A stretch of 64,000 nt of DNA, taken from NCBI GenBank assembly GCA_002011035.2, contig MTLY02000003.1:179194-243193 (forward strand), written 5' to 3'. Source of the DNA: Candidatus Hecatella orcuttiae. GTDB taxonomy: Archaea; Thermoproteota; Bathyarchaeia; Hecatellales; Hecatellaceae. Positions 32,725-55,874 of the stretch are shown here, piece after piece (positions within the stretch are counted from its first letter, which is position 1; each line of letters opens with the position of its first letter). The notes beneath the pieces are model-generated. The model was given only the letters and a program-made list of their open reading frames with translations, was not told the DNA's origin and ran no database searches. Position numbers and translations under genes: made by a program.

Positions 32725-32836
32725 GCCGGAGTCGCCTAGCGGTATGGCGCAGGCCTGGAGCCCCCTCTGAGGCTTCTGAAGCCTGAAAGCCTGTGGGCCT
32801 TCTGGGCCCCCGGGGGTTCGAATCCCCCCTCCGGCG
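32725..32836 (+). tRNA. tRNA-Ser(GGA) with one intron
   Basis: Acceptor stem gccggag/ctccggc (7 pairs), D stem gcc/ggc, anticodon stem caggc/gcctg, T arm ggggg-ttcgaat-ccccc and a long variable arm (gggcc/ggccc) typical of serine. Discriminator G at 32836. Anticodon GGA at 32757-32759. A 27-base insertion after position 37 must be removed. CCA is not encoded. The upstream gap to cbf5 is 58 bases. Confidence 0.92.
32761..32787 (+). other. Intron of tRNA-Ser(GGA), position 37/38
   Basis: 27 bases separate G37 from A38. Bulges a-g|c and a-a|a flank a central helix in which 3 of 4 pairs form (32755-32758 with 32782-32785, one T-T mismatch); the outer helix is the 5-bp anticodon stem. The intron contains a strong aggctt/aagcct hairpin. 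Confidence 0.75.
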
Positions 32837-48990: not shown

Positions 48991-49167
48991 AAAAAAGACA
49001 AATCCCCTAGAAAAAGTCCATTTTAAGCCTTTTTCACAGCATGTTTAGCCCTCTTTTTCTAAATGTTCATCGTATGAATTTCCAACATAGAAAACTGACG
49101 CTGGCCCTTCCGCGCTTGGAACTCCTTTTCTCGGAAAGACGTAAAAATGGTGGTCCCGCGGGTCGGA

Positions 49168-49187
49168 TTTTCATGGGTGGCTCCCAA
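49168..49187 (-). other. tRNA-Tyr intron 4 (20 nt, position 59/60)
   Basis: Central helix ttca/tgaa (perfect), bulges aat and aat, inner tggg/ccca, and outer helix gtcgg/ccgac (the T stem itself). The outer helix is only adjacent once intron 3 is out, which suggests ordered splicing. Confidence 0.85.
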
Positions 49188-49193
49188 TTTGAA

Positions 49194-49225
49194 CTCGCCG
49201 AGGTGAAGGGTCGTCCTTCGCCTCC
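49194..49225 (-). other. tRNA-Tyr intron 3 (32 nt, position 53/54)
   Basis: Central helix cgtc/ggcg (one G-U; 49228-49231 with 49196-49199), bulges ggg and agt, and an inner 10-position helix with one C-A mismatch. Removal joins the T-stem 5' strand gtcgg to the T loop. No outer helix is evident (relaxed BHB). Confidence 0.82.
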
Positions 49226-49241
49226 CCGACGACACTCCGGT

Positions 49242-49286
49242 TTCTGTGCGCCTGAAAGGCTGGCAGGCCTATCCAGAGGATAAACC
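49242..49286 (-). other. tRNA-Tyr intron 2 (45 nt, canonical 37/38)
   Basis: Central helix ctgt/acag (perfect, 49289-49292 with 49244-49247), bulges agg and aaa, and the outer helix is the anticodon stem. This is the standard position. The intron interior holds a gcctg/caggc hairpin. Confidence 0.88.
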
Positions 49287-49293
49287 CTACAGC

Positions 49294-49324
49294 ATCTCCT
49301 CTTCAAGGCTTTCGCCGTGAAGAT
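49294..49324 (-). other. tRNA-Tyr intron 1 (31 nt, position 30/31)
   Basis: Central helix cttc/ggag (49327-49330 with 49296-49299, one G-U), 3-base bulges cga and atg, and an inner hairpin tcttcacggc...gcc-t-tgaaga closed by a GAAA loop. The outer helix is only 2 bp. Removal completes the anticodon stem tccgg. Confidence 0.82.
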
Positions 49325-49398
49325 CGGAAGCTCTTCCAGGCTGAGCTACCGCGGGACAAGATCAGCAAACAGCCGGTAAACTTATAAGCTTTTAGCCT

Positions 49399-49603: not shown

Positions 49604-49701
49604 ATAAACCTTTCCATAACAAAACCCAAGGCAAGGCTTTTTCCCAGTAAAAATTATATGTTGCCGCTTTAACTTCTAAGGATGACGCCCTGGTAGTATA
49701 G

Positions 49702-49746
49702 GCAGCCGTGATGCGGCTAGGGATACGCCGTATCCGGCTGGTAGAG
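49702..49746 (+). other. tRNA-Asp intron 1 (45 nt, D loop, after position 15)
   Basis: Inner 6-bp helix cagccg/cggctg (49703-49708 with 49735-49740), bulges agg and agt, and a central helix with 3 of 4 pairs (gtat with gtag). The cut positions predicted by the bulges are those that give a D loop like other archaeal tRNA-Asp. Confidence 0.7.
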
Positions 49747-49768
49747 TCCGGTCTAGTATGTGCGGCTG

Positions 49769-49791
49769 TTCCGTGGCTTTCCGGAGCCGAA
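49769..49791 (+). other. tRNA-Asp intron 2 (23 nt, position 34/35)
   Basis: Outer helix gtg/cgc (one T-G), perfect central helix cggc/gccg (49763-49766 with 49786-49789), bulges tgt and aat, and inner helix tccg/cgga. The intron splits the anticodon between G34 and U35. Confidence 0.85.
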
Positions 49792-49878
49792 TCGCCCGTA
49801 CGACCCGGGTTCAAATCCCGGCCAGGGCGCCAAACATTTAGTTTAAATCCCAAACATGTCCGATCTTCTATTAGGGCC

Positions 49879-51111
49879 TTGAAGCCGAGCAGACTCGATG
49901 TCTACGACTACGACCGGCGGCTGGAGAGGTACTACGCCAACATCCACCGCCGCCCAGACCTGCTCCCCGCCCACAAGAGGGCCATCCTCGAGTTCGACCG
50001 CTGGCTGCAGGGCGGAGGCCTCAGCAAGCCCAGGCGGCTGAAGTACCTCCAGACCCTGCCCCAGGTCGCCAAGATGCTGGGCAAACCCTTCGAGGAGGCC
50101 GCCAGAGAGGACCTGAGGAGGGTCGTAGCCCAGCTCGACCGCAACGGCTACACCGGCGAAACCAAGGAGTCCTACAAGGCCGTCATCAAGAGGTTCTACC
50201 GTTGGCTGAGGCACGGCGACGACGAGGAGGCAGGCTACCCGCCGGAGGTCCGCTGGATAAAAATCAGGTCCGGCTACGGCGGCAACCGGCTTCCCGAAGA
50301 CCTGCCCACCGACGAAGAGGTCCGCGCCCTGGCCGAGGCGGCGGGAGGAGACCTCCGAGACCGAGCCTTCGTCGAGCTGCTGGACGACTTCGGAGGCCGC
50401 CCCGCGGAGCTGCTGACGCTGCGCCTCCGCCACGTGGTCTTCGACGAGTACGGGGCGGTGGTCTTGGTGGACGGGAAAACCGGCCAACGGCGGGTGCGGG
50501 TCATCCAGAGCGCCCCAGCCCTGGCCAACTGGGTCAGCCACCACCCCATGAAGGGCAGGCCTGAGGCGCCCCTGTGGCTGAAGAGGCGGCAGAACGGCGG
50601 GTACGGCGGGCCCCTGGACTACGTCGGCGCCAACGCCCTCCTCAAGCGGCTGTGCGAAAAAGCCCGCCTCAGGCGGAGGCTGCGCATGTACGACTTCCGC
50701 CACCGCCGGGCCACCAAGTACGCCAACATCCTCACCGAGGAGCAGATGGACGAATACTTCGGCTGGGTGAAGGGCAGCCGCCAGCCCCGCCGCTACGTCC
50801 ACCTCTCAGGCCGAGACATCGACCCAGCCCTGCTCAGGGCCCACGGCTTCCAGGTTCCCGAAGGCGAAGCCGGCCGCCAGCAGCCGCCCCAGGAGTGCAG
50901 CCGCTGCCACGCCAGAAACTCGCCGCTGGCCCGGTTCTGCCACCGCTGCGGCCTGGCCCTGGACCTCCAAGCCGCCCTCGACCATGACAGGAAGACGCCG
51001 GGGGACCTCCAAACCCTGAAAGCCGAAGTATCCGCCCTCAAAGAAGAACTGGCCCGGCAGAAGGCCTTCGAGGAATACGTCCTCCAATGTCTGAAAGAAA
51101 AAGCCCAGTAA
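49879..51111 (+). CDS. Tyrosine-recombinase integrase with C-terminal zinc ribbon
   Basis: Site-specific recombinase of about 410 residues. N-terminal SAM-like core-binding domain (residues about 1-130), then the catalytic domain. Arg lies in FGGRPAELLTLRLR, Lys in DGKTGQRRVRV, HxxR in DFRHRRATKYA and the Tyr in QPRRYVHLSG. An unusual tail follows: CSRCHARN...FCHRCG zinc ribbon, then a helical coiled coil. TTG at 49879 is chosen because the frame continues upstream into tRNA-Asp. Very G/C-rich, unlike neighbours: a sign of transfer. Confidence 0.9.
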   Translation: MKPSRLDVYDYDRRLERYYANIHRRPDLLPAHKRAILEFDRWLQGGGLSKPRRLKYLQTLPQVAKMLGKPFEEAAREDLRRVVAQLDRNGYTGETKESYKAVIKRFYRWLRHGDDEEAGYPPEVRWIKIRSGYGGNRLPEDLPTDEEVRALAEAAGGDLRDRAFVELLDDFGGRPAELLTLRLRHVVFDEYGAVVLVDGKTGQRRVRVIQSAPALANWVSHHPMKGRPEAPLWLKRRQNGGYGGPLDYVGANALLKRLCEKARLRRRLRMYDFRHRRATKYANILTEEQMDEYFGWVKGSRQPRRYVHLSGRDIDPALLRAHGFQVPEGEAGRQQPPQECSRCHARNSPLARFCHRCGLALDLQAALDHDRKTPGDLQTLKAEVSALKEELARQKAFEEYVLQCLKEKAQ

Positions 51112-53930: not shown

Positions 53931-55874
53931 TTGGAAGAACTTTGGTTTTTAAAATTATGCGCTTTGTTGCATGATGTTGGTAAATTAAGGTGTTGGGCTA
54001 GAGGCAAAGACTGGTCTGAACATGTCCAGTTTACTTATGAGATGTTAAAAGACGTCCTTGATAAAGAGTTGGCTATTTCAGCCATGAGGCATCACGCTTC
54101 AAGGACGTATCATCAAGATTTTCATCCTAAAACCTCTATGGAACATATTGTCCATCTGGCTGATATGGCTGCCTCCGGGGCTGACAGGGTTGAGGAAGCT
54201 TATCGGCGGTCTCCGAGACCTAAACCCCCCATAGAACTTTCCTACATTCTATCCAAAGGTTTACGTCGGTTTAGTTTTAATGCAGAGGAGCTGGAAGAGG
54301 TTTCGGCTGAGGTTTTAAAAACTTTGGAGACAAACAAGGAATTACTACATTCAGACATCCAGGCCGGTTATAGAAGGCTGTTTGAGGAGCTTTGTAACGG
54401 TCGTCTTTCTCAAATACCGGCTTATACTCAACCTCCCATAAATGATACTGACCTTTTCAGCCACATGAAGCTTACGGCAGCCATAGCCACATGCATATTT
54501 CTTTCAGGCTTCCAGCCCGGAAAGGAATTAGAGAACTACGAATTTGTCTTAGTTAGGGGTGATGCGGACAGGGTTCAAAACTACCTCAATTCCTCCAAAC
54601 GTCTGCCAGATTTGACGGCTGGAAGCAGAATTATAAAGGAGGCAACAGAGGCATCGGCCAACGTTTTCGAGGAGAGGCTTGGTCCCGACTGTGTTCTTTA
54701 TCGAGGCGGGGGGAATTTTTTGGCTTTATCACCACCTTTGATAGCGGAGGGGCTTCGACGGAGTTCCGAGAAAGCTTTTGAGGATTTGTCCCATGGGCAG
54801 CTTTCTATCACAATTATTTTAAAATCTTGTGTGGGCGCGGAGCTACAGAATTTCGGTAAAATTTGGGAGGACTCCTATTGGAGCTTACGAGAGAGAAAAA
54901 CTGGTAGACCACTTTTAGGGTTTAAACCCATCACCCCTCAGTCTGAGCCCTGCGCGGTCTGCGGAGTTGAGCTTGGAACTTTTTCAGGGAGATATAAAGC
55001 GGCTGTGGATTCCTATCCTAGATTGGAGTTTCTTTGTGAAAAGTGTCTTAAAAGAAGACAGCTTGGAGAGGAGCAGAGAGGTATAGACATTGACGGCTTG
55101 GTTAGGGCGGATGAGGAGAGTGGAGGGAAAGGATTTATCGGTATCCTGAAGATGGACGGAGACCATGTGGGTAAAGTGTTCTCTGGTAAAAAACTCAAAG
55201 AAGACTATAGTAAAAATGCAACTCCTGCTAGGCTGGCTTCGTTTAGCAGGTTTCTTCACGGAACTTTTGAGTCTGAGTTGAGAGAGTTGGTTGAGAAGAG
55301 TGGGGGAAGAACTGTTTACGCTGGTGGAGACGATCTCTTAGCTATTCTACTCGGAGGTAAGGTTTTCGATGTAGCCTTGGAGGCTGAGAGGGTATTTAGA
55401 AGAAAGACTGGTTTAACCTTATCTGCGGGTGTAGTTCTCGCTAAAAAGGGTTATCCGATCTACTTAGCTTTAGAAGCCGTTTCTAAGCTTTTAGACAATG
55501 CTAAGACTGCAGGTAGGAGTCGGTTGGACTACGAAATAGTTTGGAGCATCAGCTACACGGAGCAGGACTTATCTTTAGAGGGTAGCAGTAAGAGGCGACT
55601 AAGGCTTTCAGGCAGACCTTACAGCTGGGAAGCTCTAACGGAAATGTTAGACTTGGTGAGAAGGTTAAGAGAGAAGACGCCTTCAACCCAGCTCAGGGAG
55701 TTAAGCCGTCTAATCCAAGCAGAGAAGACCTTTGCTAAGGACGCTGCAGAGTTCTATTTGAGAAGACAGTTTGCTCGGGAGGTAATTAGTTGGGAGGAAA
55801 TGGGTTGGCTGAAAAGCTTGGTAGAGAGGAGTATGCTTTTGGATGTGCTTGAACTTTTAAAAGTTATAACATAG
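53931..55874 (+). CDS. cas10: Cas10 (type III CRISPR large subunit) with HD and GGDD
   Basis: A 647-residue signature protein of type III systems. The N-terminal HD nuclease has LLHDVGKL (H14-D15) and SEHVQFTY. Zinc-binding CAVC...CEKC lies mid-protein, and the second palm domain has VYAGGDDLLAI (GGDD near 465-468), which makes cyclic oligoadenylate on target binding. Both active sites look intact. Start is TTG after gggagg. It leads an operon with a small subunit, a Csm3-like and a Csx10-like gene. Confidence 0.93.
   Translation: MEELWFLKLCALLHDVGKLRCWARGKDWSEHVQFTYEMLKDVLDKELAISAMRHHASRTYHQDFHPKTSMEHIVHLADMAASGADRVEEAYRRSPRPKPPIELSYILSKGLRRFSFNAEELEEVSAEVLKTLETNKELLHSDIQAGYRRLFEELCNGRLSQIPAYTQPPINDTDLFSHMKLTAAIATCIFLSGFQPGKELENYEFVLVRGDADRVQNYLNSSKRLPDLTAGSRIIKEATEASANVFEERLGPDCVLYRGGGNFLALSPPLIAEGLRRSSEKAFEDLSHGQLSITIILKSCVGAELQNFGKIWEDSYWSLRERKTGRPLLGFKPITPQSEPCAVCGVELGTFSGRYKAAVDSYPRLEFLCEKCLKRRQLGEEQRGIDIDGLVRADEESGGKGFIGILKMDGDHVGKVFSGKKLKEDYSKNATPARLASFSRFLHGTFESELRELVEKSGGRTVYAGGDDLLAILLGGKVFDVALEAERVFRRKTGLTLSAGVVLAKKGYPIYLALEAVSKLLDNAKTAGRSRLDYEIVWSISYTEQDLSLEGSSKRRLRLSGRPYSWEALTEMLDLVRRLREKTPSTQLRELSRLIQAEKTFAKDAAEFYLRRQFAREVISWEEMGWLKSLVERSMLLDVLELLKVIT

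Follow-up and report, generated by a model that had tools for sequence, protein, structure and literature searches.

Archaeal tRNA genes have been described with up to three introns each. This is the maximum found by tRNAscan-SE 2.0 across 217 archaeal genomes (PMC8450103), and three introns are also named in PMC4390854 and PMC3218864; PMC8450103 and PMC4390854 agree with the figure given in the sequence-only reading of the locus that we consider here, the tRNA-Tyr gene of Candidatus Hecatella orcuttiae. The multi-intron tRNAs of Thermoproteales, such as Pyrobaculum calidifontis tRNA-Glu(UUC) and P. islandicum tRNA-Pro(UGG), have three introns each; like the Hecatella gene, they carry BHB introns at canonical and non-canonical sites, and some of their BHBs likewise form only once a neighbouring intron is gone (PMC8450103). 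The permuted tRNA-Tyr(GUA) of Thermofilum pendens (PMC3218864) shares with our gene the isotype, a BHB junction at 59/60 and the canonical intron; unlike it, the gene described here is collinear and its 59/60 site holds an ordinary intron. In the Asgard study (PMC11291895), more than half of the tRNA genes of Atabeyarchaeia and Freyarchaeia are multi-intron, often with non-canonical sites. The tRNA-Ile(UAU) of Cyanidioschyzon merolae (PMC9602550) also resembles our gene in having introns in the D-, anticodon- and T-arms, of which the one in the anticodon arm leaves last, and differs in being eukaryotic and in having three of them.

Unlike the Thermoproteales genes, the tRNA-Tyr gene described here carries four introns, belongs to Bathyarchaeia, and has the same set of sites across families. 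We found no four-intron gene in the literature on archaeal tRNA, a comparison that leaves the per-gene maximum of the Asgard study (PMC11291895) to one side, and four introns in one tRNA gene is likely a record, one above the reported maximum. The gene lies in the window, by which we mean the whole 64,000-nucleotide stretch that was analysed, and reads along the minus strand, 49355 down to 49154, as a tRNA-Tyr(GUA) with five exons of 31, 7, 16, 6 and 14 bases and introns of 31, 45, 32 and 20 nt at 30/31, 37/38, 53/54 and 59/60. Its features are as follows.

49154..49355, minus strand: tRNA-Tyr(GUA) gene with four BHB introns and 74 exon bases
49382..49387, minus strand: TTATAA, resembling a TATA box, some 30 nt before the mature 5' end, recognized by eye
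49325..49355, minus strand: exon 1, positions 1-30
49334..49341, minus strand: D-loop GCCTGGAA, partner of 49250-49257
49294..49324, minus strand: intron 1, 31 nt, site 30/31, core CTTC/GGAG with one G-U, included in the shuffle test
49287..49293, minus strand: exon 2, positions 31-37, with the anticodon GTA at 49290-49288
49242..49286, minus strand: intron 2, 45 nt, canonical site 37/38, core CTGT/ACAG, bearing the conserved element
49258..49262, minus strand: CAGCC in intron 2, able to pair with exon GGCTG (30-34), immediately 5' of U35
49250..49257, minus strand: TTTCAGGC in intron 2, 8/8 complementary (one G-U) to the D-loop, with covariation
49245..49247, minus strand: ACA in intron 2, 15 nt downstream of where CAGCC starts, overlapping the BHB strand in this gene
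49226..49241, minus strand: exon 3, positions 38-53
49194..49225, minus strand: intron 3, 32 nt, site 53/54, core CGTC/GGCG with one G-U
49188..49193, minus strand: exon 4, six bases TTCAAA, positions 54-59
49168..49187, minus strand: intron 4, 20 nt, site 59/60, core TTCA/TGAA
49154..49167, minus strand: exon 5, positions 60-73
49151..49153, minus strand: encoded 3' CCA, followed by a T-run

The gene, its intron sites and their lengths are exactly as the sequence-only reading had described them. Each of the four introns has a 4-bp central helix with 4/4 pairs and 3-nt bulges, cut after the second base of both bulges, and the division into two perfect cores and two with one G-U pair was also as claimed. 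The joined exons give the mature form of 74 nt that had been predicted, with all stems intact and the identity marks of tRNA-Tyr present (GUA anticodon, C1-G72, A73), and ARAGORN calls them, as a 74-mer plus CCA (77-mer), tRNA-Tyr(gta). The unspliced gene receives no ARAGORN and no Rfam call, and scans of the whole window miss it. Exons 1-5 are collinear, with no 3' part encoded ahead of the 5' part, and the gene is therefore not a permuted one. When each intron was shuffled 20,000 times by mononucleotide with the exons fixed, the probability of a 4-bp core was 0.014-0.033 per intron, values that are slightly optimistic because the core partly helped to place the junctions; the inner stem played no part in that placement, and the probability of the core together with an inner stem at least as long was 1e-4, 0.014, <5e-5 and 6.5e-4 for introns 1-4. 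Introns 1 and 3 have short or broken outer helices, which makes these two relaxed BHB motifs. Introns 1, 3 and 4 have the look of ordinary short BHB introns.

That the gene has three introns and no more, a single one taking up the 52 bases from 53/54 onward and the T-loop reading TGAAAAT, as chosen by an alignment with a stiff intron penalty, is barely credible: T55 and C56, constant in the T-loop, would be lost, the 52-nt intron would have just two of the four core pairs while BHB-core scoring yields 32 + 20 nt with 4/4 pairs each, and relatives carry both 53/54 and 59/60 or either singly. The T-loop and the BHB core were the grounds on which the 52-nt intron was rejected. A division of introns 3 and 4 into 18 + 34 nt, obtained from a parser without BHB scoring, was superseded by the BHB-scored 32 + 20.

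The four-intron arrangement recurs widely in the class. We surveyed 257 Bathyarchaeia genomes, located tRNA-Tyr starts by pattern in up to 162 of them, and parsed 154 genes with an aligner that allowed introns anywhere past position 7 and scored the BHB core. One intron was found in 17 genes, two in 83, three in 14 and four in 40, the last distributed over seven families (19 in f19, 11 in f10, four in f6, three in f18, and one each in f1, f3 and f25). The four sites of the window gene recur in 34 of the 40; the other six, all in f19, have 44/45 in place of 30/31 or 53/54. No five-intron tRNA-Tyr was found among the 154, though five sites, including 44/45, are used in the class. The inner (h') stems at 30/31, 53/54 and 59/60 average 7.5, 7.4 and 6.1 pairs class-wide, compared with 2.2-2.3 after shuffling. 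Within the window gene's own family, one relative has three introns (30/31, 37/38, 59/60) and three have the 37/38 intron only. NCBI taxonomy places Hecatellales within the class Bathyarchaeia, and the host is thus not a member of Thermoproteales. The gene had been set against the three introns known from that order, which its four do exceed; it is not a unique case, four introns occurring in 40 of the 154 parsed genes of the class. The layout, present in 39 related genomes, is a lasting feature of the group and not an oddity or an assembly error. At L073, L076, L082 and other Nitrososphaerales loci, a second tRNA-Tyr intron lies at 58/59, not 59/60, beside the canonical one.

We next consider whether the locus might be a pseudogene or an assembly artefact, with a normal tRNA-Tyr elsewhere. 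The host genome (1.75 Mb in 3 contigs) is 97% complete with 4% contamination, so that a second tRNA-Tyr is conceivable, and standard finders miss the gene. Against this, a search of the genome with the spliced tRNA sequence gave no second tRNA-Tyr locus, and none was seen among the RF00005 matches listed for the host genome; the stems of the mature form are all intact, and the gene has a TATA-like box and an encoded CCA. It also lies well within a contig of at least 676 kb, away from the ends, which together with the four-intron versions in 39 other genomes excludes misassembly for practical purposes. An intact tRNA-Tyr(GUA) elsewhere and an error of assembly were the two ways in which the sequence-only reading allowed that it might be mistaken, and neither came to light. 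We consider a pseudogene or artefact highly improbable. The four-intron tRNA-Tyr gene is confirmed as real, and is very probably functional. From its sequence we infer with high confidence that it is expressed as the sole functional tRNA-Tyr(GUA) gene, its transcript being cut at eight BHB splice sites and its five exons joined.

Other features of the window deserve mention in their own right. Divergent from the tRNA-Tyr gene, at 49687-49832 on the plus strand, lies a second multi-intron tRNA, by eye a tRNA-Asp(GUC), with one or two D-loop introns and one anticodon-loop intron near 35/36; from ARAGORN it receives no more than a partial call, tRNA-???, at 49746-49832. The 5' end of a tyrosine recombinase/integrase-like ORF (49708-51111, plus strand) overlaps it, an arrangement to be compared with tRNA-targeting integrative elements. 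Another intron-interrupted tRNA lies at 32725-32836 on the plus strand (Rfam tRNA match, 112 bases), and an ORF at 53931-55874, plus strand, carries HD and GGDD motifs and appears, by eye only, Cas10/Crm2-like (type III CRISPR).

Splicing endonucleases of the (alpha-beta)2 type cut relaxed BHB motifs. The host genome encodes two PF01974 splicing endonuclease genes, L218 (catalytic) and L219 (His-less). L218 (184 aa) has the Aeropyrum pernix catalytic subunit 3p1z_B as its closest match (1e-46) and keeps the Tyr, His and Lys, the His in HAPF being the residue altered in 3ajv_B; its K-P-K motif aligns to K44-P45-R46 of the crenarchaeal loop, which has been tied to the broad substrate range of the enzyme (PMC12397907). 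L219 has lost the catalytic His, as expected of a structural subunit. The pair fits an (alpha-beta)2-type endonuclease able to cut relaxed BHBs, which would cut the tRNA-Tyr precursor at its eight splice sites before the five exons are joined. The order of these events might be constrained. It had been proposed that the T-stem, which is the outer helix of intron 4, needs intron 3 gone and that splicing may thus be ordered, and our ViennaRNA calculations over all splicing intermediates at 37 C bear this out, with a probability of 0.00 in the presence of intron 3 and 0.92-1.00 after its removal. Since the helix forms only without intron 3, the likely order would be intron 3 first, then intron 4. 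The BHB of intron 2 has a probability near zero in every splicing intermediate because this intron prefers an alternative fold, which speaks against the splicing scheme in that the endonuclease would need to remodel the RNA or be helped by further factors.

This alternative fold involves a conserved element inside intron 2 that the earlier reading of the gene had missed. In order, it consists of CAGCC, TTTCAGGC, GC and ACA. With all introns still present, the MFE fold leaves U35 and A36 as the two unpaired bases between the CAGCC helix and the intron hairpin, and the pairing probabilities at 37 C are 1.00 for the D-loop and 0.97 for 31-34. The detail of the 31-34 pairing is soft, because its probability drops to 0.14-0.20, with a shifted register favoured, when intron 2 is the sole remaining intron. 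Covariation accompanies the D-loop pairing: GCCTGGAA occurs with TTCCAGGC, GCCTGGTA with TACCAGGC, GCTTGGTA with TACCAAGC, and GCTTGGCA with TGCCAAGC. When the element was located independently of the D-loop, Watson-Crick pairs between the two numbered 843, whereas none of 2000 within-family shuffles gave more than 821. In 117 class genes ACA comes next after a gap of 0-4 bases, and in 104 of these its distance from the CAGCC start is 14-16 bases. By script it is separate from the BHB strand in 68 genes (67 without L295, where ACA straddles the 3' splice site), and the BHB therefore does not explain it. The element occurs in 65 of 91 tRNA-Tyr introns of named records in and out of the class, including Nitrososphaeria and Brockarchaeota, while in family f6 some 33 genomes carry another hairpin in the 37/38 intron. 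The complete element is absent from the other host-genome tRNAs among 30 Rfam loci; in two of these, L022 and L023, a 7/8 match to the D-loop occurs with an ACA close by. Shuffling the gene's own intron 2 recreates the element in 2 of 200,000 trials; a phylum-wide motif search also returns chance matches (nine tRNA-Tyr introns vs 11 others, in 20 places with odd ones deliberately included). The element is old and conserved, and its reading is more novel yet less certain than that of the four-intron gene.

Two readings of the element need to be weighed. It might be a mere folding or timing device, in which D-loop pairing holds the precursor so that the other introns leave first, and we would give this an even chance of being right. 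The strong covariation with the D-loop speaks for it, as does the competition of the element with the BHB of intron 2, which also suggests that this intron is probably removed late. What such a device leaves unexplained is the retention of ACA 14-16 nt from CAGCC even where it lies apart from the BHB strand, and the fact that CAGCC pairing ends exactly at position 34. Both details recall archaeal H/ACA guides, in which the target lies 14-16 bases from ACA and a kink-turn or K-loop sits above the pocket at a distance of 5-6 bases (PMC7991803). For Psi35 of tRNA-Tyr two routes are described, aPus7 and, in Sulfolobus and A. pernix, an H/ACA guide (PMC6313347). In our gene ACA lies 15 nt from the proposed target uridine, and the 8-bp D-loop pairing, with its compensatory changes, forms a basal stem beside ACA. 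CAGCC is present as the 3' antisense strand, and the intron hairpin replaces the 5' strand. The predicted upper stem consists of 10 regular base pairs capped by a UCU loop, without a kink-turn or K-loop, which favours the folding device. As far as PMC7991803 and PMC6313347 relay it, the Psi35 guide of archaeal pre-tRNA-Tyr (Muller 2009) shares with the element the antisense 5' of U35, the basal stem and the 14-16 nt to ACA, the last being a rule for archaeal H/ACA guides in general, and differs from it in that the element lies in cis with no predicted kink-turn and no separate 5' antisense strand. The box C/D guide in the tRNA-Trp intron is likewise a modification guide within a tRNA intron, differing in modification (methylation), tRNA and motif.

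The distribution of TruD/aPus7 (PF01142) bears on both readings. No match was found in the host genome or in any parsed f1 or f19 genome, while the enzyme is present in most of the class. Strict complementarity between the element and TruD/aPus7 was predicted and failed, since 88 of the 121 element-bearing genomes have TruD, again as a folding device would allow; TruD is absent from 33 of these 121, compared with 1 of the 33 genomes without the element (Fisher p = 0.0017, relatedness ignored). Our hypothesis, from its modelled fold, is that the element is akin to a box H/ACA guide directed in cis at U35. It can be regarded only as a putative H/ACA member because most other element-bearing genomes have TruD and our own gene has no kink-turn. 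In its full form, which we put forward tentatively and with some doubt, the 37/38 intron of tRNA-Tyr in Bathyarchaeia and Nitrososphaeria would be a cis guide whose H/ACA-like pocket, formed by the D-loop:intron basal stem, CAGCC on 30-34 and ACA about 15 nt away, presents U35 to Cbf5, substituting for aPus7 in those genomes that lack its gene and having to act before intron 2 is spliced. Late splicing of intron 2 would then perhaps follow once modification of U35 has been served.

Relative to the published maxima (PMC8450103, PMC4390854), the number of introns in a single tRNA gene rises from three to four, and the multi-intron extreme, formerly that of the hyperthermophilic Thermoproteales, now lies in a widespread class of archaea. 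With one- to four-intron versions of one essential gene at hand, intron gain and loss, splicing order and endonuclease range become testable. Thermofilum uses the 59/60 site too, in its permuted tRNA-Tyr, which suggests a way, open to testing, in which permuted genes could arise; a relation by descent between the intron here and the T. pendens junction is no more than a possibility. The intron 2 element, lastly, offers a reason for the retention of the canonical intron, which may aid tRNA modification before its own removal.
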